NCBI GenBank assembly: GCA_903873705.1
Contig: CAIQPK010000014.1
Location: 1-33,161, forward strand
From: an uncultured Acidobacteriota bacterium
GTDB lineage: Bacteria; Acidobacteriota; Terriglobia; Terriglobales; Acidobacteriaceae
Length of the DNA: 33,161 nucleotides
Direction of reading: 5' to 3'
In this document: in pieces, positions 14,179 through 28,359 of the stretch
Position numbering within the stretch: the first letter of the stretch is position 1
Layout: every line of letters begins with the position of its first letter
The notes under the pieces: model-generated
Told to the model about the DNA's origin: nothing
What the model saw: only the letters and a program-made list of their open reading frames with translations
Database searches by the model: none
Made by a program: the position numbers and the translations under genes

Positions 14179-14292
14179 GAATTTGAACCCCTGATAGTGA
14201 CGCTCCAGGCAACCCCGCAGCGGTCAAAAAACTCATGGCGTGAACCACTCCACCTCCCCTGCCTGCCATCCAACCACGCAGGAGATTTTGCC

Positions 14293-14668: not shown

Positions 14669-15529
14669 TCAACCCAGCAAATCGCTTATAGCTTTGTCGT
14701 AGCTGTCGCTGCGTGTCAATCGCTTTACGAGCTCCTCCGATGGAAGCCCCTTCAGATCTTTGGGACGGGTTCCATTTTTGAGGGCGGTGAGCGTTTCATA
14801 CACCGCCTGCATGGCCGCCATGACAGGTGCGTGGCCCTGTAGGCAAATCTTCACTCCCAATGGAGCAAGATATTCGAGGTCGACCACCTCTGCCCCTGGA
14901 TTGCCCAGGATGATCGGCAGGTTTATCTGGGAGGCTATTTCTTCAAGCTGCGAGCGGGTCTTTATTCCGGAAAAGAAAAGCGCATCCACACCGGCCGCCT
15001 CATATGCCTTACCCCGCGCGATGGCATCGGCGTTGCCGGTAACGGCCGGCGCACTGGTCCTACCAACAATCACGAGCCGAGGATCCTGGCGGGCGGCAAC
15101 GGCGGACCGCATCTTGCCCACGCCTTCCTCAAGCGAGATCAGCGTCGTCTTCCCGTTCGCGCCAAACGACATCGGCAGCGCCGTGTCTTCGATAGTCAGA
15201 CCGGCAACGCCTGCTGTCTCCAGTTCCTCTACCGTGCGCGCCACGTTGAGGGCGTTGCCGTATCCGTGGTCCGCGTCAACCAGGATGGGCAGCGTGCAGG
15301 CGCGGCAGATTCGGTAGGTCTGTTCCACGAACTCCGTCAGCGTCAGCAGCACGATATCCGGGGCGCCGAGAACGGTCAGCGACGCTGTGGAACCGGCAAA
15401 CATGCCGAATTCATAGCCGACCTCTTCCGCAATCCGCGCCGAGATCGGATCAAAAACGGAGCCTGGGTAGTAGCACTTGTCCGTAGCAAGGATGCTGCGA
15501 AAACGTTCACGTTGCTGGCTGAAGTTCAT
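14669..15529 (-). CDS. Oxaloacetate-decarboxylase-like protein (PEP mutase / isocitrate lyase superfamily)
   Basis: A 286-residue cytoplasmic Mg2+-dependent barrel enzyme. It follows the pattern of the Pseudomonas PA4872 oxaloacetate decarboxylase closely: CYYPGSVFDPISARIAEEVG, GSTASLTVLGAPDIVLLTLTEFVEQ, the metal site PILVDADHGYGNALNV (Asp85/Asp87), GLTIEDT (Glu114) and VIVGRTSA (Arg157). His233 in CLQGHAPVMAAM aligns with the His that goes with decarboxylation in that enzyme. The expected product from oxaloacetate would be pyruvate and CO2; a related 2-keto or malate-type acid is equally possible. It is the last gene of a leftward set (hydrolase, MFS, this gene) and has an inverted repeat just upstream. 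Confidence 0.85.
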   Translation of the reverse strand: MNFSQQRERFRSILATDKCYYPGSVFDPISARIAEEVGYEFGMFAGSTASLTVLGAPDIVLLTLTEFVEQTYRICRACTLPILVDADHGYGNALNVARTVEELETAGVAGLTIEDTALPMSFGANGKTTLISLEEGVGKMRSAVAARQDPRLVIVGRTSAPAVTGNADAIARGKAYEAAGVDALFFSGIKTRSQLEEIASQINLPIILGNPGAEVVDLEYLAPLGVKICLQGHAPVMAAMQAVYETLTALKNGTRPKDLKGLPSEELVKRLTRSDSYDKAISDLLG

Positions 15530-15630: not shown

Positions 15631-16944
15631 TCACGTTCCCTGTCCCGGTGAACCCGCGGGGGATTCCTGCGACATCCCTTGGGCGGTGTTGAGGCTGTTT
15701 TCAGAATCGTGAGCAACAGACGTGAGCTGAAGGCCGCGCGTTTCCGGCAGCAGCAGGGTAGCTGCGATGGCAATCACGTAGGCGCAAAGCGCGTACGCTG
15801 CGATAGCCTTGTTCAATGGCATCTTTCGCGCCAGTGCGCCGACTCCCGCCACGCAGAATGCGCCAATCCCCTTACCGAAGTTATAGGAAAAAGATTGACC
15901 GGCTGCGCGAATAGCCGTTGGAAAGAGCTCAGTAAAGTATGGCCCGAGAGAGGCGTATGAACCCTGGGTGAAGAATCCGAAGGGCAGGCTCAGCAAAAGC
16001 AATCCCGTTCGCCCTAAGGGCAGATACATGTAGACCAGCGTTGTTACCCAGGCCATGCCCGAAAAGAACAGGAAGTTGTAGCGGCGGCCGACGCGGTCGG
16101 TGAGGTAGGCGCTGCCGATGAAGCCCAGAAATGCGCCCGTCGTGATGAACATCATGAAAGTTCCAACACCCGTGATCGACAGATGACGGACCGTTTTGAG
16201 GAACGTCGGCAGCCACGGAATCATGGAACTTCCCGCGCCGATGATGCCGAGTGCCAGAAGTGAAGACAGGATCGTGGTGCGCAGAATCGCCGGATGGAAG
16301 ATGGCGAATACTCCCGGTTGGCCTTCACGCTGCTTTTTCTTCATCTCCAGAAATACAGGCGGCTCCTGCACGTTGCGCTGAATGAAGATGACCAGCACCG
16401 CGGGCAGCGCGCCTATCCAGAGAAGCACTCGCCACGCGTAGGCAGGGGGAAGGAAATGAAAGCCGGCGGTAGAGACCAGGGTTGCCAGCATCCACCCGAT
16501 GCCGTAGCCGCTCTGAACGCAGCCAACGGCTTTTCCGCGATGCGCGGGACGGATGATCTCTCCCATGAGCACAGCGCCTGCACCCCACTCGCCGCCGAAG
16601 CCAATGCCCTGCAACATGCGGACGCAGAGCATTTGGTTATAAGAGTGAACGAAGCCGGCAACCAGCGTGAAGAATGCAAACCAGATGATCGCGGCCTGCA
16701 TGATGCGGACACGGCCATAACGGTCTGCCAGAATGCCACTGACCCATCCGCCGAACGCGGTAGCGAGCAAAGCTGCCGTGCCAAGGAAGCCAGCCTGTGC
16801 ACTGTTTACGCTCCACAGCAGCATCAGCGTTGGAATAAGGAAACTGAAAATCTGGGCGTCCATGGCGTCCATGGTCCAGCCGGTGAAGCATGCCCAGAAC
16901 GTCCTTCGTTCCGTACCAGAGAGTTCCTTGTACCAGGCAAACAC
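15631..16944 (-). CDS. MFS transporter, organic/aromatic-acid symporter type
   Basis: A 437-residue twelve-helix major-facilitator protein of the inner membrane. Features of the AAHS/SHS carboxylate:H+ symporter group are RRTFWACFTGWTMDAMDAQIFSFLIPTL in helix 1 (with acidic D-x-x-D), the loop 2-3 signature GGWVSGILADRYGRVRIM, RMLQGIGFGGEWGAGAVLMGE in helices 4-5 and a second loop motif LTDRVGRRYNF. ELFPTAIRAAGQSFSYNFGKGIG is also typical. The start was set at GTG 16944 because GGAG lies seven bases upstream and the family begins near WYKEL; a TTG at 16977 lacks a ribosome site. It follows the NodB-fold hydrolase gene by under 90 bases in the same direction. It probably imports the organic acid used by the locus. 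Confidence 0.9.
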   Translation of the reverse strand: MFAWYKELSGTERRTFWACFTGWTMDAMDAQIFSFLIPTLMLLWSVNSAQAGFLGTAALLATAFGGWVSGILADRYGRVRIMQAAIIWFAFFTLVAGFVHSYNQMLCVRMLQGIGFGGEWGAGAVLMGEIIRPAHRGKAVGCVQSGYGIGWMLATLVSTAGFHFLPPAYAWRVLLWIGALPAVLVIFIQRNVQEPPVFLEMKKKQREGQPGVFAIFHPAILRTTILSSLLALGIIGAGSSMIPWLPTFLKTVRHLSITGVGTFMMFITTGAFLGFIGSAYLTDRVGRRYNFLFFSGMAWVTTLVYMYLPLGRTGLLLLSLPFGFFTQGSYASLGPYFTELFPTAIRAAGQSFSYNFGKGIGAFCVAGVGALARKMPLNKAIAAYALCAYVIAIAATLLLPETRGLQLTSVAHDSENSLNTAQGMSQESPAGSPGQGT

Positions 16945-17028
16945 GGTGCCACTCCAGAAGTACGGCTGTATCGTCAAGAAAAAGAAGCCTGCAAGTAGAG
17001 GGGGCTGAGACTCGCAGGCCCCAAAAAT

Positions 17029-17886
17029 TTAGAGGTTGAGAATCCGCCTGTTGTAGGCCAATTCGCCGTGCCCCTGTTGCCGGGCCCACGCACCGAGTTC
17101 CTCGTGACGTGCGAACCAGACGTCAGGGAAGGTTTTGAAGTACGTCAGGAGCTCGTCATACGCCGCCGTCATCATGGAGCGACCGCCGAAATGGGCGTGC
17201 ATGCTGATGACCACCAGGCCGCCCGGCTCGTTGTTGTACAGGAAGTCGAAGGTGCCCTTGTAAACGTCGAAAAAGTCTCGCGGGCTCGCGCGAAGGACGC
17301 GGTTGTCGGTGAAATCGCTGGCCATGACGGCCGCAATAGGGCCGTGTTCGGTCTGCTGCAGATAAGGCATATCGGTGTAGGTGACATCCGCGTGCCAGTC
17401 GAGTCCGGCTTCAGCGAGAAGTCCGGGGGTTTCAGGCGTGAAAGCCAGGACGGGGCTGAGCCATCCCGTGGGGCGTTTGCCGGCGACGCTCTCCAGCTGG
17501 TCAAGCGACTTCTTGATGACGGCCCGCTGCTCGTCGACGGTCATGTAAGTGAGCAGGCCGTCCTGGGTGTAAGCGTGGCCCGCGAGGTCATGGCCGGAGT
17601 GCACGATGTGCTGCATCGCTTCGGGAAACTCTTCAACACAACGGGAGTTCGCCATGACGGAGGCTTTCACCCCGTGGCGGTTCAGGGTATTGACGATGCG
17701 CCAAATGCCGGTGCGTCCGCCGAAGCTCGACCAGGCAATACCTGCATGATCGATGGTGCCGGGCTTGAGCGGCGTGGTCTGCACGGAGTACTTGGGTGCT
17801 ACCCCCGGCATGTAAGTTTCGAACATGATGGTTGTCGCTACGGCAATGCGGGCGCCGTTGGGCCAGAGAGTGGGGGATGAAGACAT
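17029..17886 (-). CDS. Polysaccharide-deacetylase-fold (NodB/PuuE-like) hydrolase
   Basis: A 285-residue protein of the NodB-homology superfamily, whose members hydrolyse C-N bonds of N-acyl sugars, imides or ureides. It lacks a signal peptide and resembles the cytoplasmic PuuE/HpPgdA-like branch. Opening IAVATTIMFETY has Glu23 where classical deacetylases have the first Asp. GRTGIWRIVNTLNRHGVKASVMAN is followed by the metal motif SGHDLAGHAYTQD (His99/His104), GWLSPVLAFTPET and WHADVTYTDMPY, and the late VVISMHAHFGGR His. The ATG 17886 has AAAGGA upstream. It is the first gene of the leftward operon and faces the ThDP-enzyme gene across two operator palindromes. In this context an N-acyl or cyclic-imide/amide acid substrate is plausible; no purine genes support allantoin. 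Confidence 0.85.
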   Translation of the reverse strand: MSSSPTLWPNGARIAVATTIMFETYMPGVAPKYSVQTTPLKPGTIDHAGIAWSSFGGRTGIWRIVNTLNRHGVKASVMANSRCVEEFPEAMQHIVHSGHDLAGHAYTQDGLLTYMTVDEQRAVIKKSLDQLESVAGKRPTGWLSPVLAFTPETPGLLAEAGLDWHADVTYTDMPYLQQTEHGPIAAVMASDFTDNRVLRASPRDFFDVYKGTFDFLYNNEPGGLVVISMHAHFGGRSMMTAAYDELLTYFKTFPDVWFARHEELGAWARQQGHGELAYNRRILNL

Positions 17887-17980
17887 GAAAATTTATCCTT
17901 TCGTGCATTCTGCACGTCCTAGAGACAACCGAGTCTAAGCAACGGCGGAGAGATTTGACAAGACATTCCAGATAGAAATT

Positions 17981-17999
17981 ATCATAGATCGTGCACGAT
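17981..17999 (-). promoter_or_regulatory. Putative GntR operator, copy 1
   Basis: Read on the minus strand: ATCGTGCACGATCTATGAT. The first 12 bases are a perfect palindrome. It matches the four-copy consensus ATCRTGYATSATRCAYGAT at 16 of 19 positions. It is 94 bases upstream of the NodB-fold hydrolase start, in the divergent gap with the ThDP gene. Confidence 0.7.
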
Positions 18000-18057
18000 G
18001 TGACGGTTGGATGCGTGCAGCGCGTACGGGGAGAGGTCCTTCTAAACATTTTCTTAT

Positions 18058-18076
18058 ATCGTGCATGATGTATGAT
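18058..18076 (+). promoter_or_regulatory. Putative GntR operator, copy 2
   Basis: ATCGTGCATGATGTATGAT matches the consensus at 18 of 19 positions. It lies 38 bases before the ThDP-enzyme start; TATGAT at its right end (18071-18076) could be the -10 element, so bound repressor would cover the promoter. Confidence 0.75.
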
Positions 18077-18114
18077 TCTTGCCGTGTGTGCTGTGATTTT
18101 AAGGAGCTTGATTC

Positions 18115-19833
18115 ATGTCCAACGTGTCTTCTTCCCCCGTTCTCCGGCCTCGTACCGGCGGCGAAATTCTTGTTGATGCCCTGGTCAGCCAAGGTGCGAA
18201 GACGACGTACTGCGTCCCCGGGGAGAGTTATCTGGCGGTGTTGGACGCGTTGTACGATGCGCATGGCATTCGCAACATCGTATGCCGGCATGAAGGCGCC
18301 GCGGCGAACATGGCTGATGCCTATGGGAAGCTCACGGGGGAGCCGGGGATCTGCTTCGTGACGCGCGGACCTGGCGCGACTCACGCCAGCGTGGGCGTGC
18401 ATACGGCGTTTCAGGATTCGACACCGATGGTGTTGTTCGTGGGACAGGTGGCGCGAAGCGCGGTGGAGCGGGAAGGGTTCCAGGAGATCGACTACCGGCG
18501 CATGTTTGGACCGATGGCGAAGTGGGTTGCGGAGATTGAGTCGGCGGACCGCATACCCGAGTTTGTGGTGCGCGCCTTCAGCACGGCGACATCCGGCCGT
18601 CCTGGACCGGTGGTGCTGGCGCTTCCTGAAGATATGCTGCGCGAAGTGGCGACGGTGGCCGATGCACCGCATTACAAGGCCTCTCAAGGCGCACCGTTGG
18701 CTGAACAGATGACGGAACTCGGCGAACGCCTGGAGCGGTCTGAGAAGCCGTTGCTGATTCTTGGGGGAACGACGTGGACCGAAGAGGCGCGCGAAGAGCT
18801 GCGCGCGTTTGCTGAGGGCAATGATCTTCCGGTGGCGGCGGCATTTCGTTTTCAGAGCACGATCGATCACACCAGTGCGAACTATATCGGTGACGTCGGG
18901 CTCGGGATCAATCCGAAGCTGGCCGCACGCATTCGTGAGGCAGATGTGGTTGTTGCGGTTGGTCCGCGCCTGGGTGAATCGACCACTGGCGGCTACTCGC
19001 TTTTCGCGATACCCAAGCCAAAGCAGTCGCTGATTCATGTTCATACGTCGGCTGAAGAACTTGGGCGAGTTTACCAGGCCGACCTGGCGATCAATTCTGG
19101 CATGCCGCAGTTCACGGGCGGACTGAAATCGATCCGGCTGACGAAGAGCCTTGCGCGTGCGGCCTGGCTGCATCAAGGACGTGAAGATTACATCAAGCAC
19201 ACCACGCCCGGTCGCATCCGTGGCAATGGTGTCGACATGGCCCACGTTGTGCACCACTTGAGTGAAACGCTTCCCCCGGACTCCATCATTTCGAACGGCG
19301 CGGGCAACTACACCGTGTGGATCCACCGGTACTTTCGGCATCGTGGTTTTCGCACGCAACTGGCTCCGACGAGCGGCGCCATGGGATATGGCATTCCTGC
19401 TGGCATCGCGGCCAAGCTCGAGCACCCGGATAGAACCGTGGTGGCTTTTGGCGGTGATGGGTGTTTCATGATGTATCCGCAGGAACTGGCTACTGCGGTG
19501 CAATTCGGCGCGAATGTCATCATCATCGTGGTCAACAACGGCATGCTGGGGACGATCCGCTTTCACCAGGAGAACAACTATCCCGGCCGCGTTTCAGGGA
19601 CGGCACTCATGAACCCGGACTTCGTGGCGCTGGCGAAGTCGTTTGGAATATTCGGAGAACTCGTAGAGCGTACGGAAGACTTTGCGGCTGCGTTCGATCG
19701 CGCGGTGAAGGCCGGCGGACCGGCGCTGCTGGAACTCCGCACAGACCCCAACGTCATCAGCCCATCGACCACGCTGACCGAGCTGGCGGCCAAGCATGCT
19801 GCGGCGAAGCAACCTGCCGCAACGACGAGCTAG
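18115..19833 (+). CDS. Thiamine-diphosphate-dependent enzyme (acetolactate-synthase/decarboxylase-like)
   Basis: A 572-residue cytoplasmic enzyme with the three ThDP domains in order. The pyrimidine domain (about 13-180) has the catalytic Glu60 in CRHEGAAANMADAYGKLTG and then FVTRGPGATHASVGVHTAFQDSTPM. The central domain (about 205-340) comes next, and the pyrophosphate domain has GGDGCFMMYPQEL (about 445) and VVNNGMLG (about 474), the GDG...NN motif. The family covers acetolactate synthase, glyoxylate carboligase, oxalyl-CoA and 2-keto-acid decarboxylases; the sequence alone does not choose. No small regulatory subunit gene is adjacent, so biosynthetic acetolactate synthase is unlikely. AAGGAG lies eight bases before the ATG. 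Its stop shares the four bases CTAG with the convergent regulator gene. Confidence 0.92.
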   Translation: MSNVSSSPVLRPRTGGEILVDALVSQGAKTTYCVPGESYLAVLDALYDAHGIRNIVCRHEGAAANMADAYGKLTGEPGICFVTRGPGATHASVGVHTAFQDSTPMVLFVGQVARSAVEREGFQEIDYRRMFGPMAKWVAEIESADRIPEFVVRAFSTATSGRPGPVVLALPEDMLREVATVADAPHYKASQGAPLAEQMTELGERLERSEKPLLILGGTTWTEEAREELRAFAEGNDLPVAAAFRFQSTIDHTSANYIGDVGLGINPKLAARIREADVVVAVGPRLGESTTGGYSLFAIPKPKQSLIHVHTSAEELGRVYQADLAINSGMPQFTGGLKSIRLTKSLARAAWLHQGREDYIKHTTPGRIRGNGVDMAHVVHHLSETLPPDSIISNGAGNYTVWIHRYFRHRGFRTQLAPTSGAMGYGIPAGIAAKLEHPDRTVVAFGGDGCFMMYPQELATAVQFGANVIIIVVNNGMLGTIRFHQENNYPGRVSGTALMNPDFVALAKSFGIFGELVERTEDFAAAFDRAVKAGGPALLELRTDPNVISPSTTLTELAAKHAAAKQPAATTS

Positions 19834-20645
19834 GTGGTCGCGGCTATCGCGTCGACGGGATGTTTACGAGGACGGCCTCGCCGGATGATGGGTTGTTCGC
19901 TTACCAGCTTCTTCTGCTCTTCTTCCGCCTCGGCAAGCGCCTGCATAACGCGTTTGCGTCCATTTTCGAGGTGTTCCTGCAAGGCCCGCTCCGCGGCACG
20001 GCCGTCGCCTTTTTGAAAGGCCTCGACGATGGCACGGTGTTCGTTGAGGACGTTGTCGGAGGACGTGGCGCTGTGCGTGCGATTCAGGTAGAGACGCGAT
20101 TGCAGCAAGATGGCGTGCATGCCTGCGATGGCGTGCATCTTGGAGTAAATTTCGGTGAAGACTTCATTGCGCGCGCTGTTGACGATGATCATGTGGAACT
20201 GCGCGTCGGCGTGCACAAACTTGCGGTACTGCTGATAGCGCGCCCCCAGCTTATGGGTCTTCGACATGACCGAGAACACTCTCTTCAGCTCTTCGATGAC
20301 TTCCGGATCCTTCTGCGCGGCGCCGATCCGGGCGCAAGCACCTTCGAGCAGGATGCGAAAGTCGAGAACCTGATTGAGGTAGGAAGGAGCTGGCGTCGGC
20401 GCAACGGAGTAGCCGCTATACAACTCCGAGATGATGAGGCGCTCCGCTTCAAGCCGGGCCAGCGCTTCACGGATTGGCGAAGAGCTGACCGAGAGGTTCT
20501 TGGACAACGCGTCGATATTGAGGCGCGTTCCTGGCTCAAGGGCGCCATCGAGAATCTGTTCCTTCAGAACTTCATACACCTGCTCGGCCAAGGTGCTCTT
20601 GGTGAGCAGCCGTCGTGCCCCTGTTGGATTCGTCCGCGGCTTCAT
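19830..20645 (-). CDS. GntR-family (FCD) transcriptional regulator with AT-hook-like tail
   Basis: A 271-residue regulator. The winged helix-turn-helix (about 15-82) reads LAEQVYEVLKEQILDGALEPGTRLN, then LSVSSSPIREALARLEAERLI. The all-helical FCD effector domain (about 92-235) keeps its metal ligands Asp147 and His151 (HADAQFH), His203 (NEHRAIV) and His225 (QEHLENG); such domains usually sense small carboxylic acids. The tail after about 245 is unusual: RRGRPRKHP (255-263) is an AT-hook-like DNA-minor-groove motif. It probably represses the divergent hydrolase/ThDP, its own/FAH and GMC/TonB promoters through the 19-bp palindromes. TACAAT, seven bases before its ATG on the minus strand, could be a -10, implying a very short leader. 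Confidence 0.93.
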   Translation of the reverse strand: MKPRTNPTGARRLLTKSTLAEQVYEVLKEQILDGALEPGTRLNIDALSKNLSVSSSPIREALARLEAERLIISELYSGYSVAPTPAPSYLNQVLDFRILLEGACARIGAAQKDPEVIEELKRVFSVMSKTHKLGARYQQYRKFVHADAQFHMIIVNSARNEVFTEIYSKMHAIAGMHAILLQSRLYLNRTHSATSSDNVLNEHRAIVEAFQKGDGRAAERALQEHLENGRKRVMQALAEAEEEQKKLVSEQPIIRRGRPRKHPVDAIAATT

Positions 20646-20718
20646 CGCTGAGATTGTACCGGATTCGCCTTCGTGGTCTTACAGGCAACGTAAATGGTGT
20701 CATAAAAATAACCCGCAT

Positions 20719-20737
20719 ATCGTGTATGATGCACAAT
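20719..20737 (+). promoter_or_regulatory. Putative GntR operator, copy 3
   Basis: ATCGTGTATGATGCACAAT matches the consensus at 18 of 19 positions, with seven of nine arm pairs complementary. It lies in the 141-base gap between the regulator gene and the FAH-family gene, so it could serve both autoregulation and the FAH promoter. Confidence 0.75.
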
Positions 20738-20786
20738 GTTTTACGAGTTACTATGAGTGTGCGGCTTGCAGAAAGGGACAGATCGA

Positions 20787-21629
20787 ATGAAACTCCTCCG
20801 CTACGGCGCGCCCGGGGAAGAAAAGCCGGGTCTACTGGATTCCGAAGGCGTGATAAGGAGTCTCGTCGGCGTTATTCCGGACATCACCGGTAAAACGCTT
20901 TCCGCCGAGCAACTGAAAGAGCTGGCCAGCGTCGATCCGCACACGCTTCCTTGCATCGCTTCGACAGAGCGGCTGGGGCCATGCGTTGGTGGTGTATCGA
21001 AGGTGGTCGGTGTGGCCCAAAACTATTCCTGCTTTCTTGCTCAGGCAGGATTGCCGGATCCCAAGCATCCGATCCTCTTCATCAAGCCGCCTTCGTCGAT
21101 CAGCGGACCCGATGACGATGTTGTTCTGGCCTCCGACTCCGATAAAGCTGACTGGGAAGTTGAACTGGGGGTCGTGATTTCCAAGGTGGCGCAAAGCGTG
21201 TCGCCAGAGGTAGCCATGGATTACGTGGCGGGCTATTGCTTGCTAAACGACATTACTGAACGTGGCCGGGTGGCCAGGAGTGGGCAGTTTGTCGATGGCA
21301 AGAGCGCGGACACATTTACACCCATTGGGCCATGGCTGGTGACGAAGGATGAGATCCCGGACCATCGCAATCTTGGCATCTATTTCGACCTTAACGATCA
21401 TCGGTATCAGAGCGGCAACACGTCGGCGATGATCTTCGGCATAGAGTTCCTGATCAGCTACATCAGCAAGCTGATGACGCTGATGCCAGGCGACATCCTT
21501 GCTACGGGGACGCCGATGGGCGTGGGAGCGCGCTCAACGCCGCCTCGGTTCCTGCGCGCCGGCGACCGGATTGTGGCCAGCGTCGACCACCTGGGTACGC
21601 AAAAGGCGACCGTGGTGACGGCGCACTAA
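20787..21629 (+). CDS. Fumarylacetoacetate hydrolase (FAH) family protein
   Basis: A 280-residue cytoplasmic metal-dependent enzyme of the FAH superfamily. Members hydrolyse C-C bonds of 1,3-diketo acids, hydrate or isomerise 2-oxo acids, or decarboxylate oxaloacetate. The core is complete: VVGVAQNYSCFLAQAG, HPILFIKPPSSISGPDDDV, the metal-binding ADWEVELGVVI, GYCLLNDITERG, KSADTFTPIGPWLV and PGDILATGTPMGVG. The usual first family motif N-Y-x-x-H has Cys-Phe in place of the expected x-H, since NYSCFLAQAG lacks the His. The ATG 20787 is preceded by AAAGGGA. It is convergent with the cytochrome gene. Its role is probably a late step on a 2-keto or beta-diketo acid. Confidence 0.9.
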   Translation: MKLLRYGAPGEEKPGLLDSEGVIRSLVGVIPDITGKTLSAEQLKELASVDPHTLPCIASTERLGPCVGGVSKVVGVAQNYSCFLAQAGLPDPKHPILFIKPPSSISGPDDDVVLASDSDKADWEVELGVVISKVAQSVSPEVAMDYVAGYCLLNDITERGRVARSGQFVDGKSADTFTPIGPWLVTKDEIPDHRNLGIYFDLNDHRYQSGNTSAMIFGIEFLISYISKLMTLMPGDILATGTPMGVGARSTPPRFLRAGDRIVASVDHLGTQKATVVTAH

Positions 21630-21655
21630 GCAGACCGCGTAGAGAGCATGAAGCC

Positions 21656-21701
21656 AGAAGATGCCCGGGACGATATCCCGGGCTCGCTCTTGCCTTCTGA
21701 G
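21656..21701. terminator. Probable bidirectional terminator between FAH and cytochrome genes
   Basis: GCCCGGGA (21663-21670), loop CGATA, TCCCGGGC (21676-21683) gives a perfect 8-bp GC stem in the convergent gap. AGAAG before it and CTTCT after it can extend the structure. No strong T-run is present on either side. Confidence 0.5.
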
Positions 21702-21707
21702 GAGCGC

Positions 21708-22325
21708 TTACTCGAAGGAGAGAACGCCCTTGTACTTATCGACGGACTTATCTCCCGCGATGGCCTGCAGTGTGGCGAAGTCTTTGATTTTTCCCTTGGC
21801 TCTTGCATCGAGGATTTTCTGCAATGCCTCCGGAGGCAGAAGACCAAGGAACCTCAGCTGATCGTTGGAAGCAGCGTTGATCGGGATGGGAAGCGCGAGT
21901 GGCGGTGCGGTCGGACTCAGAACGTCACCCAGGTACTTCGTAATGATGGTTGCATCCTCTGGCTGGATTGGGGCGCTGCGCATATCGATCATGCGACGGA
22001 CGATCTGCCCCCAGCCGTCTGCGTCAGACTGCCGTGTGACCACAACCTGTGCCGAGTGACAGGAGTTGCAATAGACTGCCGCCTGAAACTGGCCCTCCCC
22101 CGCAGGAAAGAAAATGCTCCAATCGAGATTCGGAGGCAGGCCGGCTTGACTCTTCGCATTGGGCGGCGCGGCCGCTTGTCCTGCGGCTGCCGGCAAGAGC
22201 GGAGAAGAGTGCGTAGCGGCGTGCACCGCGGCTGCAGGAGAGTGGAGTGATGCTGAAAATAACGTGCCGCTCACAAGACCAACGGCAACAGCGATGCGGC
22301 AATGGACAGAACCCATACTTCTCAA
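21708..22325 (-). CDS. Exported monohaem cytochrome c with C-terminal helix-hairpin-helix
   Basis: A protein of about 205 residues. The signal sequence (about 7-37) is followed by an Ala/Pro-rich linker. A haem-c site CNSCH (Cys86, Cys89, His90) sits in GQFQAAVYCNSCHSAQVVVTRQ, and RRMIDM supplies possible distal Met ligands. The C-terminal 60 residues (PINAASNDQL ... LPPEALQKILDARAKGKIKDFATLQAI) read as a ComEA-like helix-hairpin-helix, odd for a cytochrome. It lies 82 bases downstream of the FAD dehydrogenase gene in the same direction, so it is the likely electron acceptor in the periplasm. Start: TTG 22325 has GGAG eight bases upstream; ATG 22316 is the alternative but is too far from that site. 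Confidence 0.82.
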   Translation of the reverse strand: MRSMGSVHCRIAVAVGLVSGTLFSASLHSPAAAVHAATHSSPLLPAAAGQAAAPPNAKSQAGLPPNLDWSIFFPAGEGQFQAAVYCNSCHSAQVVVTRQSDADGWGQIVRRMIDMRSAPIQPEDATIITKYLGDVLSPTAPPLALPIPINAASNDQLRFLGLLPPEALQKILDARAKGKIKDFATLQAIAGDKSVDKYKGVLSFE

Positions 22326-22407
22326 AGCGTGTACTCCTTCAGCCGTCGGCAAGAGGCACGGCTTTAATTCCCAGGCTATTGCTTACGTTCCAACCAAGAC
22401 AAGCCGA

Positions 22408-24648
22408 TCAAGCAAAGCCCTTGGTCGAACACCCCCGGGAGAAGTGGTTCTCGATCATGCGGCGATACGCATACGCTGCGGAAGCTGCAGTTGGGCCGGC
22501 GGCCCAGAGGAAAGTCTTCGGCACGGTCGAGCCGCCGATGAACATGAGATTGTCGATGTCGTGGCAGTCAAAATCAGACGAGCAGACGGAGACCTTGGCG
22601 TTCTCACCGGCGCGCGTGGTGCCCGTCATATGTTGTGGCCTGATGGAGTCCATTGGCCGGGCGAAGGTGCGCATATTTTTACGCACGACTTTCACCGGCA
22701 GCTTGTCATGCCAGGCGTGGACCCATTCCTCACCCTGTTTGATCGCGGCCTGGAACGCGGGCTTGTCGATGGAGGTGCGCTCGGCAAAGCCGTCGGGACG
22801 AATGCGCCAATCCCACGACACGGCGCAGAAGTGGCAGCGCCACGACATGACCCGGCTGATGCCGGAGCCGTTGCGCATGAACTCCTTGTGCTCCCAGCCA
22901 AAGGCCGGAGATAGCGGGTCAACCGCAACGTTGGCCGGAATCGTGCGTGGATTGCCCGAGTGAAAGCGAATGTGATTCGCTTTCCACGGCCGGGGCGCGG
23001 TGGAAGCCCACACCGTTTCGTTGGGGATGTCGGCATCCCGCATGGCGAAGTTCACCTGCTCTGCCAGCAATGCTGTGGAAACGAAGTCGCAGTCGGCGGA
23101 GAGGTTGCGGCCGACGTTGCTGTTTTCCACGACCAGCTTGTCTCCAAGCAGCTCCTTGGGGCCGTAGCCCGAGCGATAGCAGAGCAGGGGAGCCCACACC
23201 GTGCCCGCGGCCACGATGACGCGAGCGGCGCGCACCTCGTGCATCGCTCCTGCCTTGTCCTTGTAAACGGCCCCGGTCGCAACCGGCTTGCCGCCGGCGG
23301 ATTTGTCGATGACGATCTTCTGTACGTCAGCGTTGGCGATCACTTTCAGGCCGTGGTTCAAGCCGATGTAGGCCCAGGGAAGGGTGTTGCCCTTGGTGTC
23401 GTAACGATTGCTTTCACCGCAGCCCGGAAAGGCATTGCGATACGCGCGCTGATTCGGACGCACGTCAAAGCCCAGTGAGCGTGCGCCATCGGCCCACATG
23501 TGATCGCCCTTGGACCACCACTCATCCGGCGTCGCTTCGAGATACATCATGTCCGAGACTTCCTGGATGGAGGTGCCGAAGCGTGCTGCATCCCAGTTCA
23601 CACCTGATGTTTCCTGGTAGAAGCGAAAATCGTCTTCGCCCGGCATCCAGAGCGTGCCGCCGTAGTGCAGGACGCAGCCGCCCAGCAGGCGAATGTTGGC
23701 ATCGCCTTCTACCATCGGGTAGTCCCACAGCGGGTCAGGAAGCGCGCTCATCAGGCGGCGGGTTGGGGCGCCATAACCCGGGTTGAGGCTGGAATCGCGA
23801 ATGGTCCAGTCGTCGCCAGCTTCGATCAGGGCTACACGGAGTTTGTCGCCTGTTTTAGGATTCATCCCGCGCTCAGCCAGTCGGCCGGCGACCAGGCAGC
23901 CCGCTGTTCCGCCGCCGAGCACGATGACGTCGTAATAGTCATGCCCGTCCCCGGTTTTGTGCGGTATGGCGGGTGCCGGGCGCGCGGAATTCAGCGTGGC
24001 GGTCGGCTGGTCATACCAGTGCATGGAAACTTTCTTCGCCTTGTTGCGTTCCTTCTCTTCCTCGGGCCAACCCATCTGGCCGCCGTAGCCGGCAACGTCC
24101 CACCCGGTCACCAGCTTCTTGTCCTTCCAGACGTTAGGGCTTGTCACCTGGTGCGTGTCGCCGGCCTGCACTTTGGGCAAGCCATTGGTTCCGAGAGTGT
24201 ACTCGTCGAGAGGAAAATTCTTGTAGTACACAGTAAGGATCTGGGTACGGGCGCCCCGGTAAAACGCCTGCAAGCGCAGCTTTTGCCGAGGGTCGGTCAG
24301 CTTCGTTCCCTCATCGATAATGCCGAGGTACTCTTCCCGCTGCTTCTCGTCCAGGTCAATAAAGGCCTTTCCACCGAAAAAGGCCTTCGCCGCTTCGTTG
24401 AAAGAGGCCAGGGCGTCGGCGGGAAGCTTTTCCATAACGACATCGGAGATGCCATGCGCTTCCAACTCGGCGTAACCGGGGTCGCCGGGGCGAGAGGGGA
24501 TAAAGACGGACCCCAGGGCCGCCACGATTGCCTTGTTTGGATTGGCAACCACCTGCCCTACCGCCGCAAGGGTGCCGCCGCCGGTAAGCATCGCCGCCCC
24601 TGCGGCCGCCTGCATCACAAAGTCTCTTCTGCTGATTTCGTCTGCCAT
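22408..24648 (-). CDS. Tat-exported fusion: gluconate-2-dehydrogenase subunit-3-like domain plus GMC FAD dehydrogenase
   Basis: A 746-residue protein. The N-terminus ISRRDFVMQAAAGAAML is a twin-arginine signal. Residues about 38-190 resemble the small subunit 3 of membrane gluconate 2-dehydrogenase: NKAIVAALGSVFIPSRPGDPGYAELEAHG, KLRLQAFYRGARTQ, TGWDVAGYGGQMGWP. The rest is the FAD subunit: VIVLGGGTAGCLVAGRLAERG (about 240-260), GGCVLHYGGTLWMPGEDDF, and the C-terminal QHMTGTTRAGENAKVSVCSSDFDCHDIDNLMFIGGSTVP. The catalytic His (QHMTGT) is kept, but the usual Asn-Pro-Thr is AAGPTAAS, so the second catalytic residue appears to be Gly. AGAGG lies upstream of the ATG. It should oxidise an alcohol or hydroxy-acid group in the periplasm and pass electrons to the cytochrome c encoded next. 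Confidence 0.88.
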   Translation of the reverse strand: MADEISRRDFVMQAAAGAAMLTGGGTLAAVGQVVANPNKAIVAALGSVFIPSRPGDPGYAELEAHGISDVVMEKLPADALASFNEAAKAFFGGKAFIDLDEKQREEYLGIIDEGTKLTDPRQKLRLQAFYRGARTQILTVYYKNFPLDEYTLGTNGLPKVQAGDTHQVTSPNVWKDKKLVTGWDVAGYGGQMGWPEEEKERNKAKKVSMHWYDQPTATLNSARPAPAIPHKTGDGHDYYDVIVLGGGTAGCLVAGRLAERGMNPKTGDKLRVALIEAGDDWTIRDSSLNPGYGAPTRRLMSALPDPLWDYPMVEGDANIRLLGGCVLHYGGTLWMPGEDDFRFYQETSGVNWDAARFGTSIQEVSDMMYLEATPDEWWSKGDHMWADGARSLGFDVRPNQRAYRNAFPGCGESNRYDTKGNTLPWAYIGLNHGLKVIANADVQKIVIDKSAGGKPVATGAVYKDKAGAMHEVRAARVIVAAGTVWAPLLCYRSGYGPKELLGDKLVVENSNVGRNLSADCDFVSTALLAEQVNFAMRDADIPNETVWASTAPRPWKANHIRFHSGNPRTIPANVAVDPLSPAFGWEHKEFMRNGSGISRVMSWRCHFCAVSWDWRIRPDGFAERTSIDKPAFQAAIKQGEEWVHAWHDKLPVKVVRKNMRTFARPMDSIRPQHMTGTTRAGENAKVSVCSSDFDCHDIDNLMFIGGSTVPKTFLWAAGPTAASAAYAYRRMIENHFSRGCSTKGFA

Positions 24649-24836
24649 TATGCCTCTTCAAGGGGAGTATTGCGTGCTGCCGCCGGATAAATACTTTCTC
24701 GTTTAAAACAATTTCATGTTGCCAACAACTCTCTGCTTCACCGCCGCCGGAGACGCGTATGTCCGCGGCCCAGCTATGTTCCGTGGCAATTCTACGCTTG
24801 CCGCCGAAGTAATGTCGCGCGCTTCCCACATGTCAT

Positions 24837-24855
24837 ATCGTGCATGATACATGAT
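24837..24855 (+). promoter_or_regulatory. Putative GntR operator, copy 4 (best match)
   Basis: ATCGTGCATGATACATGAT defines the consensus (19 of 19). It sits in the 306-base gap between the FAD dehydrogenase and TonB receptor genes, seven bases before the receptor's -35 element. Apart from this site and the receptor promoter, I see nothing else in that gap. Confidence 0.78.
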
Positions 24856-24862
24856 TTTTTTA

Positions 24863-24892
24863 TTGACAAACGTTATCCGAGTGCGGGATAAC
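24863..24892 (+). promoter_or_regulatory. Promoter of the TonB receptor gene, overlapped by an inverted repeat
   Basis: TTGACA (24863-24868), 18-base spacer, GATAAC (24887-24892). A perfect inverted repeat GTTATCC (24872-24878) and GGATAAC (24886-24892) with a 7-base spacer covers the spacer and -10. It could be a second operator distinct from the 19-bp palindrome. Transcription would begin about 24899, which excludes the ATG at 24901 as the main start. Confidence 0.6.
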
Positions 24893-24954
24893 AGCACCCG
24901 ATGAAATCGTGCCTACGTTCGATCTCTTCAAATTATCGCGATGAGGATGGACTC

Positions 24955-27900
24955 ATGATCTTTCGGAGTGCCACGAAGTTGATTCTGGCTGTATTTCTTT
25001 GCCTGTGCGGACTCACTGCGTACGCGCAGCTGCCGACGGCCACCCTGCTAGGTACGGTGAAAGACCCGTCCGGCGCATTCGTGCCTAACGCCACAGTGGC
25101 GGCACGCAACACGGAAACCGGCGAAACCCATACGACCAAAGTGGGGAACGATGGCGGCTTCCGCTTGAGCGCACTGCCGGTGGGACCCTACACGATCCGT
25201 GTCGAGGGCACCGGTTTCAAGGCCGTCGTTGGCAACAACGTGGTGCTGACCGTTGGCCAGGAGCAGGTCGTTGACTTCACGCTGCAGATCGGTACGACCA
25301 ACGAGGTGGTCGACGTTACCGAAGACCTGCCTGTGATGAATACGACCAGCAGTTCACTCGGCGGCACCATCGATGAAAAGAAGATGGCGGAGCTTCCTCT
25401 GAACGGTCGCGATTACATTCAGCTCGCGCTCTTGCAAACCGGTATTAACGAAGCAAAGTCGAGAACCCCGAGCTCGAACGCCCTCGCTGGGGCAGGGCAG
25501 TGGTTCAGCACCAACGGCGCGCCGGTGCGCTCGAACGCATACCTGCTTGATGGAACGAGTCTTTCGACTTACGGCGGGAGCAGCAGTTCGACCATCTCCG
25601 GCAACACGCTCGGGCTGGATGGCATTCGTGAGTTCAAAATCATCACGAGCTCCGCGGACGCGCAGTACGGCGGTGTAATGGGCGCCCAGATGACGATGGT
25701 CAGCCGTTCCGGAACCAACAAATATCACGGCAGCATTTTCGACTACCTGCGTAACAGCGCCCTGGATGCCAAGAACTTTTTTGATAATCCACAAGGATCG
25801 GGCCTGACCGTTGCGGGAGACCAACGGCGCCTTCCCCCGTTTCGCCGTAACAACTTCGGCGCCTCGCTGGGCGGGTTCATTCAGAAAGACAAAACCTTCT
25901 TCCACGTCACCTACGAAGGCCTTCGCCAGGTTCAAGGGCTGACGTTCCTGAACAATACTCTTCCCGCAGGCTGCCACGGTGCAGCCGGAGCAGTGATCAC
26001 TCCCGCTCAGTGCAGCTCGGTGTCTGCTAACACGACCATCGATGCGCGCACCGCTCCGTGGGTAGCCCTGTTTCCGCTTCCGAATAACGGAACGAACGGC
26101 TTGTCGTGGAGCTTCCAGCAGCCTGTTCATGACGACTTTGGACAAGCGCGGGTCGACCATACCTTCTCGCAGAAAGACAACGCCTTCATCCGCTATACGG
26201 TCAATCGCAGCGATCTGTCGATCCCCGGAACCTATCCCGGATATGACTATCTCTCGAACGGCAAGAACCAGTACATTACCGCGGCCGAGAACCATACGTT
26301 CACCACGAACGTGCTGAATTCCTTCCGCTTTGGATTCAGCCGCGCACCGCAGACCATTGGATTGAAGCCGTACGTCACCGGCCCGGGATATTCGTTCGAG
26401 ACCGGTTTCCCGATGGGTACGCTCGCGGTAGGCGGTACCACGCAGGCGCTCTTTGGCGGCAACCCCACGTCGCAGGCATTCCAGGACGTTCTCAGCTTCA
26501 GCGATGACGTGTTCATCAATAAAAACCGCCATTCGATCAAGGTCGGCGTTCTGATCAATCACTACAACATCAACGTCGCTAACGGTACCAATCTCTTTGG
26601 CCGCATCAACTTTTCCAACATCAGCAATTTCCTGAAAGCCATACCGACGACCTACCAGGCCGTTGCGCCGGGTGGCACCAACCAGAAAGAAGTGTCTTAC
26701 TATACGCTCGCCGAATACGTCCAGGACGACTGGAAGGTCTTCCCGCGACTGACGCTGAACCTGGGTCTGCGCTACGAAATCAACACCGATATTCACGCAG
26801 TGGGCGACACGGCAAGCTTCAACGGGGCCCTCATCAACCCGCTAACCGACACGGACTTTACTCACACCAACCTGCTCACCCGCAATCCCTCCTACAAGAA
26901 CTTCGGTCCTCGCGTCGGTTTTGCCTATGACCTCTTCGGCAACGGAAAAACGGCCATCCGAGGTGGTTTCGGCGAGCTGTACCAGATTGCCGCATGGCTC
27001 TCGTTCCTGCACGGGGCGACACGCGGGCCGTTCGGCCAGAACCAGTTCTCCGGCAGTTCTGCGGCGTTCACGGTGCCCTTCGCGGTCCCAAGCACGAATT
27101 CACTGGCGGACCTGCAGGCACGTACTCCGACTCTCTACGAGTACGACATCAAGCAGCCGAAAATGTTGCAGTACAACATGGCGGTTCAGCAACAGTTGCC
27201 GTGGCAGATGGCATTGACCGTGGCCTATAGCGGTTCGCGGGGATATAACCTGCAAGTGCTGACCGATGGCAATCCGACCGTTCCCAATGGCGTTCCTGTA
27301 GCGGTCAACGGTGTCTATGTCTGCCGCCCCGGTTCAACGCCGCCGATCGCCTCGCAAAACCTGGTGTACGGTGCCGCGGCAAATGCCTGCGTTGCCCCGA
27401 TTATTACCGCGGCGCAGATTACAGCCTCTCCATCGTTGGCAACGTACTACCCGACGGCCCAGACCACCGTAGCCTCGCGTCAGAACAACAACTGGGGCGC
27501 CTTCAACCAGATCTCGGACGCGCGTGACAGCTGGTACAACTCCCTGCAGGTCGATCTGGTGAAGAACCTCACTCATGGTCTGCAGTTCCAGACAAATTTC
27601 ACCTACTCCAAGCTGCTGGATGACACCCAGGGCGCTTCATCTGGCACCACCGAAGTGGTGGGCAGCGCGACCTACGCCTCCAACCCCTACAACCCACTGC
27701 TGGACAAAGGACCCTCGGCTTTCAACGTTCCTTTCAGCTCCAAAACGAACGTGACTTATCACTTCCCAAGGTTCAACACGAATCGCTTTGCGTCAGGCCT
27801 GATCAACGGGTGGTGGACGACGGCGATCGTGCAGGCGCAATCCGGCCTTCCCTTTACCCCAACGTTTAGCGGAAGCCGTTCGCTGCTGAACGTCAACAAC

Positions 27901-28359
27901 AACAACGTTGCCGTAGTGGACCGTCCGCTGGTTATTGCCGGTCGTACCCCTTACAACATCACTCACGGCACCAGTGCCGGATGCACTGGCGTCGCAGCCG
28001 GAACGCCGATTGGGAACAGCACGCTGTACTTCGATCCGTGTGCCTTTACGATTCAGTCATCCGGGTTCCTGGGCACGGAGGAGAGGAACTACCTGTCGGG
28101 TCCCCACTTCCGGCAAGTTGACTTCTCGCTGGTGAAAGATACCCATCTTCCGAAGCTGGGCGAAGCGGGTTCACTGCAATTCCGGGCAGAGATCTTCAAT
28201 CTCTTCAACCACACGAACTACGCCAACCCCAACAGCAGCGTGTTCGCGGGCAACGGCGCCACCGTCAACGATGTTGAAAACCCGGTCCAGGGCGTGGGCC
28301 AGATTCTGTCCGCTTTTCCGTCGAGACAGGTGCAACTGAGTCTGAAGGTGCAGTTCTAA
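24955..28359 (+). CDS. TonB-dependent outer-membrane receptor, Oar-like
   Basis: A 1134-residue outer-membrane protein. The signal peptide ends at TAYAQ (about residue 24). The carboxypeptidase-regulatory-like domain (about 25-110) has LLGTVKDPSGAFVPNATVAARN and GGFRLSALPVGPYTIRVEGTGFK. A plug follows (about 118-240: VMNTTSSSLGGTIDEKKMAELPLNGRDYIQLA, AYLLDGTSLSTYGG, DGIREFKIITSSADAQYGG), and the long beta-barrel ends ALRF-like with QVQLSLKVQF, an aromatic last residue. This architecture is characteristic of acidobacterial receptors that import oligosaccharides or other large or rare nutrients using TonB. Start 24955 has GAGGA seven bases upstream; ATG 24901 sits at the predicted transcription start. 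The substrate is unknown, but co-location suggests it is what the locus degrades. Confidence 0.95.
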   Translation: MIFRSATKLILAVFLCLCGLTAYAQLPTATLLGTVKDPSGAFVPNATVAARNTETGETHTTKVGNDGGFRLSALPVGPYTIRVEGTGFKAVVGNNVVLTVGQEQVVDFTLQIGTTNEVVDVTEDLPVMNTTSSSLGGTIDEKKMAELPLNGRDYIQLALLQTGINEAKSRTPSSNALAGAGQWFSTNGAPVRSNAYLLDGTSLSTYGGSSSSTISGNTLGLDGIREFKIITSSADAQYGGVMGAQMTMVSRSGTNKYHGSIFDYLRNSALDAKNFFDNPQGSGLTVAGDQRRLPPFRRNNFGASLGGFIQKDKTFFHVTYEGLRQVQGLTFLNNTLPAGCHGAAGAVITPAQCSSVSANTTIDARTAPWVALFPLPNNGTNGLSWSFQQPVHDDFGQARVDHTFSQKDNAFIRYTVNRSDLSIPGTYPGYDYLSNGKNQYITAAENHTFTTNVLNSFRFGFSRAPQTIGLKPYVTGPGYSFETGFPMGTLAVGGTTQALFGGNPTSQAFQDVLSFSDDVFINKNRHSIKVGVLINHYNINVANGTNLFGRINFSNISNFLKAIPTTYQAVAPGGTNQKEVSYYTLAEYVQDDWKVFPRLTLNLGLRYEINTDIHAVGDTASFNGALINPLTDTDFTHTNLLTRNPSYKNFGPRVGFAYDLFGNGKTAIRGGFGELYQIAAWLSFLHGATRGPFGQNQFSGSSAAFTVPFAVPSTNSLADLQARTPTLYEYDIKQPKMLQYNMAVQQQLPWQMALTVAYSGSRGYNLQVLTDGNPTVPNGVPVAVNGVYVCRPGSTPPIASQNLVYGAAANACVAPIITAAQITASPSLATYYPTAQTTVASRQNNNWGAFNQISDARDSWYNSLQVDLVKNLTHGLQFQTNFTYSKLLDDTQGASSGTTEVVGSATYASNPYNPLLDKGPSAFNVPFSSKTNVTYHFPRFNTNRFASGLINGWWTTAIVQAQSGLPFTPTFSGSRSLLNVNNNNVAVVDRPLVIAGRTPYNITHGTSAGCTGVAAGTPIGNSTLYFDPCAFTIQSSGFLGTEERNYLSGPHFRQVDFSLVKDTHLPKLGEAGSLQFRAEIFNLFNHTNYANPNSSVFAGNGATVNDVENPVQGVGQILSAFPSRQVQLSLKVQF

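Follow-up and report, generated by a model that had tools for sequence, protein, structure and literature searches.

What controls the catabolic locus on a single contig of an uncultured Acidobacteriota bacterium (GenBank assembly GCA_903873705.1, contig CAIQPK010000014.1), and is the GntR-type regulator encoded in the middle of that locus the protein that binds the four related short sites in its intergenic gaps? The window analyzed here is the complete contig, 33,161 bases long, from a genome of 4,181,895 bases in 94 contigs. The original prediction, made by eye, was that four copies of a 19-bp palindrome mark the divergent promoter regions of the locus and that the resident FCD-type GntR regulator binds them. 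We consider it likely, on comparative sequence evidence, that the four sites are operators of this regulator and that it acts as an autoregulated local repressor of the catabolic locus, released from DNA by an acid.

Results

Four sites in three divergent gaps

Scanning the window for the 19-mer with up to 3 mismatches returned exactly four matches (with 3, 1, 1, and 0 mismatches; Table 1) and none elsewhere in the window. This reproduces the predicted agreement at 16, 18, 18, and 19 of 19 positions and the reported absence of sites from the first 14 kb. Shuffled windows contained a mean of 0.03 matches, and four matches were reached in 0 of 100 of them. As had been predicted, all of the sites fall in three divergent gaps of the gene layout: two lie between the gene for a NodB-type hydrolase and that for a thiamine diphosphate (ThDP) enzyme, one lies between the regulator gene and a FAH-family hydrolase gene, and one lies between the genes for a flavin adenine dinucleotide (FAD) dehydrogenase and a TonB-type receptor. 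Operator 1 and the start of the NodB-type gene are 94 bp apart, and operator 4 is separated by 45 bp from the listed start of the receptor gene and by 188 bp from the start of the dehydrogenase gene. The location of operator 3 in the regulator's own gap suggests autoregulation. We infer from position which promoter each of the sites would serve.

The motif is nearly confined to this locus. In the whole genome, a scan allowing up to 3 mismatches found the four locus sites and one further match, which lies on a 3.3-kb contig (C63) and overlaps two open reading frames (ORFs), while the reversed pattern, used as a control at the same threshold, gave 0 matches. Across the genome, the exact core, ATCGTGCAYGAT, is found at 3 places, all of them within the locus. 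When the threshold was lowered to 2 mismatches, the genome itself yielded three matches with 0 to 1 mismatches each; among 100 relatives, 9 genomes yielded a single match each, in every case at 2 mismatches exactly, compared to one match in 1 genome for the control pattern. Many unrelated matches across the genome would have counted against the original prediction; with only one extra match, the assignment is not refuted. That the sites are a compositional artefact, or a repeat family with no regulatory role, is hardly credible: chance can produce short degenerate palindromes, but the shuffled windows and the reversed control put such an origin far below what is observed, the positions are limited to divergent gaps, and the motif recurs in two other bacteria (see below).

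A 12-bp palindrome with a third box

Read in a 7-bp register, the sites take the form ATCGTGC-AYGATNY-AYGAT, so that the proposed 19-bp palindrome is reduced to one of 12 bp, formed by boxes 1 and 2, followed by an extra half-site (box 3). Operator 1 shows this most clearly, combining a perfect 12-bp palindrome, ATCGTGCACGAT, at positions 17988 to 17999 with a third half-site. This palindrome has GT and AC within the spacing of 2 to 3 nt characteristic of FadR/FCD operators; in each of operators 2 to 4, one half has a single-base departure from GT-N2-AC. The element thus contains more than two half-sites in a fixed register, as a phased-array operator does.

Evidence for the third box was obtained in two ways. 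Three places in the genome were found by the 12-bp core alone, with box 3 unused, and all of them have ATGAT at +14. We also aligned nine sites from three organisms, namely, the four window sites, four from the alphaproteobacterium described below (G793), and one from a Diaphorobacter plasmid; among the G793 sites, two weak ones (L016:8108 and 18114) were included on account of their location in the same upstream regions. In this alignment, information was high at positions 1 to 19, and most flanking columns were low, the highest reaching 1.01 bits (position −8). The third box carried 0.8 to 1.5 bits per position, compared to 0.65 to 2.0 in the palindrome, a conservation that is partly circular because most of the nine sites were found with the 19-bp pattern. 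At the Diaphorobacter site, the 7-bp register runs on for two further boxes.

The regulator protein

The resident regulator matches both domains expected of the FadR/FCD subfamily, with 60.9 bits for PF00392 (cut-off, 27) and 79.5 bits for PF07729 (cut-off, 24.3), and its recognition segment is VSSSPIREAL. The Asp and His residues of an FCD metal site have counterparts in D147, H151, H203, and H225, which we take to be the metal-ligand positions of that domain. In an 11-row alignment, the four are either invariant or conserved to 90% or more; one of the rows (L019) was read from the wrong strand and is meaningless. FCD regulators bind as dimers, and a small acid at the metal site brings about release from DNA. 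The best NCBIfam model for the protein was TIGR03338 (Burkholderia-type PhnR), at 92.6 bits; membership in that family was rejected, since the cut-off is 271.5 bits and no phosphonate genes were recognized among the scanned proteins of the locus.

The motif accompanies relatives of the regulator

A scan of a genome collection confirmed two relatives, one 53% identical in the alphaproteobacterium Co_bin.305 (G793) and one 27% identical in Pigmentiphaga. The G793 regulator gene ends a gene run that includes genes for a tripartite ATP-independent periplasmic (TRAP) transporter, an EamA protein, a DHDPS-family protein, and a flavin mononucleotide (FMN)-dehydrogenase, among others. At up to 3 mismatches, the G793 genome of about 5.6 Mb contains 3 matches. 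Two of them share the 65-kb contig of the regulator gene: one is located upstream of the genes dctP-dctQ for the TRAP transporter, and the other stands between the EamA gene and the DHDPS-family gene and touches the start codon that is listed first. On a plasmid of the betaproteobacterium Diaphorobacter that encodes a 38.6%-identical relative, the sole match in 761,384 bases is in the upstream gap of the regulator gene itself. A matrix built only from the four window sites gave its top scores at the G793 site (23.1; 19 kb) and at the Diaphorobacter site (22.3; 20.7 kb), compared to 99% null levels, from 300 Markov-resampled sequences each, of 18.0 and 17.6, respectively. No comparable score was obtained for Pigmentiphaga and two 33-34% identical relatives, one of which scored 17.3 at its own gap (L011:7914).

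The same motif is therefore found at two relatives of the regulator, in bacteria in which the candidate target genes differ, and this co-occurrence lends the GntR assignment support that the original prediction did not have. It also bears on the identity of the binder. A regulator encoded elsewhere might bind the sites, with the nearby GntR gene merely one of its targets, and co-location by itself does not identify a binder; but such a regulator would have to account for the motif beside relatives of this protein in two other bacteria, where the target genes are not the same, and the GT-N2-AC arrangement of the 12-mer core is the one reported for the subfamily (PMC4494728). We regard this alternative as highly improbable and the comparative evidence for the resident regulator as the predicted binder as good.

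The proteins and sites also hint at a relationship between recognition segment and sequence. VSSSP(I/L)REAL is common to all three motif-sharing proteins, and an association of VSSSP or ISSSP with ATCGTGC was seen at 3 of 4 loci. Among homologues with VSQTP or ISQTP, 5 of 6 (L010, L011, L018, L021, and L056) have ATC-N6-GAT sites of other sequence, and L019 approximates one. The VSQTP link is loose, given that two ISAIP loci (L054 and L057) carry such 12-mers as well; a third locus, L055, has none. Upstream of VSQTP-type GntR genes, the 12-mers start at L010:7890, L011:7926, L018:1392, and L021:1390, and at L010 and L011 a likely third box stands beside the 12-mer in the 7-bp register. These observations would fit a tentative recognition code in which VSSSP goes with ATCGTGCAYGAT and VSQTP goes with ATCCTATAGGAT, ATCCGATCGGAT, or ATCATATACGAT. 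The SS pair itself is widespread, being present in the recognition segment of 95 of 120 homologues (the best 120 of 257).

As a negative control, we took the 300 bp upstream of 19 distant homologues (27 to 36% identity; L018 to L036), of which 0 of 19 had a match better than 5 mismatches. The bare 7-mer ATCGTGC or its complement was present only at L036. A script located the recognition segment in all but 6 of these 19 loci. An AT-N8-AT palindrome (at least 4 of 6 pairs) was found within the same distance at 10 of the 19 loci and at none of the other 9. A 7-bp architecture general to distant homologues was not upheld by these counts.

Several observations weigh against assigning the sites to the resident regulator as a repressor. 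The Diaphorobacter match has 3 mismatches, its score of 22.3 compares with 22.06 for the largest of the 300 null maxima, and the next divergent gap on that plasmid has no site. The Pigmentiphaga relative (L007) has no match even at up to 5 mismatches, and L034, which has an ISSSPLREAL segment and 30% identity, has no ATCGTGC site. Only two motif-bearing relatives could be examined, the sequences that are 71 to 85% identical being proteins with no genomic context. Finally, a scan for sigma-70-like promoters performed at chance level, with 5 sites compared to 5.3 in shuffles; since it did no better than shuffled sequence, it gives no support to promoter occlusion.

A repressor or an activator

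We propose that a 12-bp GntR palindrome (ATCGTGCAYGAT or a near variant) together with the third half-site would be occupied by one dimer, or by two close-packed dimers covering 19 bp, and that the third box would make binding tighter or cooperative. Bound in this way, the regulator would repress its own gene as well as the divergent catabolic and uptake operons by covering the divergent promoters. Release would follow the binding, at the FCD metal site, of a carboxylate that the pathway produces or consumes; this ligand would probably be a 2-oxo or diketo acid.

The same protein might instead be an activator, or a dual regulator at some of the sites, with operator 4, for example, aiding transcription of the receptor gene. 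A TTGACA hexamer at 24863 to 24868, just downstream of operator 4, would suit activation, but no good second hexamer follows it and it is not listed by the promoter scan. The scan does list TTGACA-16-AATTAT at 17955 to 17982 (plus strand), the second hexamer of which touches operator 1 and would suit repression, with the caveat that the scan as a whole was at chance. FCD regulators of known mechanism are mostly repressors. Taken together, these points make an activating or dual role unlikely, and repression is the role that we prefer. Very probably, to judge from the sequence comparisons, the regulator controls the neighboring degradation genes through the four sites, in what would be a well-supported, ordinary local circuit.

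An AT-hook-like tail

The C-terminal region of the regulator (residues about 252 to 262) contains RRGRPRK, in which we see what we take to be a textbook AT-hook core. Of the 12 closest sequences, counting that of the window itself, 11 contain GRPRK, compared to 0 of 108 others (the best 120 of 257 homologues). The longer RGRPRK is present in 10 of these 12; P0008 has LGRPRK, and P0009 has no hook. Some of the 108 other homologues have different basic RGR stretches at one end. Compared to the window's protein, the 12 closest sequences average 44% identity in the linker and 89% in the hook, and a variable linker leading to a conserved hook suggests selection. Pfam AT_hook was listed for 2 of 6 hook-bearing proteins scanned, at 11.3 and 10.6 bits (below the cut-off of 17.4), and was listed neither for the window's own protein nor for the hookless P0013. 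Each of the four operators has an A/T run of at least 6 no more than 12 bp away, an arrangement with a chance of about 0.10 in the same gaps; A/T runs are thus within chance expectation and do not demonstrate use of the hook.

The literature searched contained no paper combining AT-hook and GntR. One possibility, which we put forward tentatively and consider doubtful, is that a small clade of FCD GntR regulators gained a flexible C-terminal AT-hook tail, such that the winged helices would read the three-box operator and the hook would grip the minor groove of a neighboring A/T tract.

Genes and distribution of the locus

The features of the locus are collected in Table 1. Among its enzymes, the FAH-family hydrolase scored 322.9 bits with an NCBIfam equivalog model, below the cut-off of 500, and its true start may be the ATG at 20788. 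The cytochrome-c-like gene comes after the GMC-type dehydrogenase gene on the same strand. Opposite the cytochrome-c-like gene is a plus-strand ORF (21648 to 22250; 200 amino acids) with no family match, which is probably no gene. The set of enzymes would point to a pathway with 2-oxo or diketo acids as intermediates and pyruvate as its end product. Four plasmid loci with ThDP or NodB-type homologues differ in their settings and do not fix the substrate.

Table 1. Operators and genes of the catabolic locus, with positions in the 33,161-base window
Feature	Position	Strand	Remarks
PEP (phosphoenolpyruvate)-mutase/isocitrate-lyase superfamily enzyme	14669..15529	minus	best-scoring solved structure, PA4872 oxaloacetate decarboxylase
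Major facilitator superfamily (MFS) transporter, aromatic acid/H+ symporter-like	15631..16977	minus	below curated NCBIfam cut-off
NodB-fold hydrolase (polysaccharide deacetylase/PuuE-allantoinase-like)	17029..17886	minus	
Operator 1	17981..17999	minus	3 mismatches; ATCGTGC ACGATCT ATGAT on minus strand
Operator 2	18058..18076	plus	1 mismatch; ATCGTGC ATGATGT ATGAT; 38 bp before ThDP enzyme ATG
ThDP enzyme, acetolactate-synthase-like	18115..19833	plus	NCBIfam PRK08199, above cut-off
FCD-type GntR regulator, 271 amino acids	19830..20645	minus	GntR and FCD domains
Operator 3	20719..20737	plus	1 mismatch; ATCGTGT ATGATGC ACAAT; between regulator and FAH gene
FAH-family hydrolase	20757..21629	plus	best-scoring solved structure, L-2,4-diketo-3-deoxyrhamnonate hydrolase
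Cytochrome-c-like protein, CNSCH haem motif	21708..22352	minus	listed start TTG; no Pfam match
GMC-type FAD dehydrogenase	22408..24648	minus	gluconate-2-dehydrogenase subunit 3 domain fused at N-terminus
Operator 4	24837..24855	plus	0 mismatches; ATCGTGC ATGATAC ATGAT; between FAD dehydrogenase and TonB-type receptor
TonB-dependent-receptor-like outer-membrane protein	24901..28359	plus	carboxypeptidase-regulatory domain and OMP_b-brl_4

Orthologues of the regulator were sought in samples of related genomes, which overlap one another. At an E value of ≤1e-30, the window's own protein was the only one found among 101 relatives and among 396 genomes of the phylum, and at ≤1e-35, it was the only one among 399 genomes of the class and among 220 of the family. 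Since the sampled group holds no further orthologue, footprinting among close relatives is impossible. For the ThDP enzyme, likewise, only the window's own copy was recovered among the 101 relatives (E ≤1e-150). The regulator is similarly isolated in the class of G793, where a sample of 385 genomes contained it in G793 only (E ≤1e-45).

At about position 14200, the composition of the contig changes: GC content falls from 62% to 58%, and GC skew, which is −0.2 to −0.36 up to this point, lies between −0.12 and +0.12 beyond it. The change points to either the edge of an island or a join in the assembly. Horizontal gain of the part from 14.6 to 33 kb would be consistent with this shift and with the absence, at the thresholds used, of the regulator and the ThDP enzyme from the sampled relatives.

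Discussion

The proposed regulator-operator pair fits the known FadR/NanR frame, with an operator sequence of its own. According to a 2015 study of the FadR subfamily (PMC4494728), GT and AC are mostly three bases apart in the sites of this subfamily and two bases apart in several groups; extra, weaker half-sites are located 7 to 12 nt from the center in 13 groups, and divergons have single and double sites. The sites described here resemble those operators in having a 12-bp palindrome whose GT and AC are separated by two bases, a further half-site some 10 nt away from the center of that palindrome, and a divergent gap that combines the regulator gene with a site. They differ from the TKGT/ACMA boxes given there in that the sequence is ATCGTGCAYGAT and in that the third box is well conserved, partly through the use of a 19-bp search pattern.

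The second parallel is NanR of Escherichia coli, three dimers of which occupy a (GGTATA)3 operator (PMC8012715). The two systems share an FCD-type GntR regulator and an operator made up of a short phased array of half-sites, which NanR binds as several dimers. Unlike the direct GGTATA repeats of the NanR operator as presented there, the boxes in the acidobacterial locus overlap as palindromes in 7-bp steps, and, whereas NanR is described as relying on an N-terminal extension for cooperativity, the extension in our regulator is C-terminal and AT-hook-like. The literature searched contained no paper joining GntR, FCD, and overlapping palindromes and none joining ATCGTGCACGAT with GntR, FCD, and regulator; titles from a further search, for which the phylum was guessed from the receptor type, did not deal with a regulon of this kind.

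The finding leaves the general understanding of such systems unchanged. It does raise the question of whether a GntR repressor can be helped by an AT-hook tail; if the tail acts as suggested above, the AT-hook would be a third DNA contact, for which the literature searched contained no GntR precedent. For the group of GntR proteins to which this regulator belongs, and for which we found no assigned function, a motif first picked out by eye becomes a testable regulator-operator pair.

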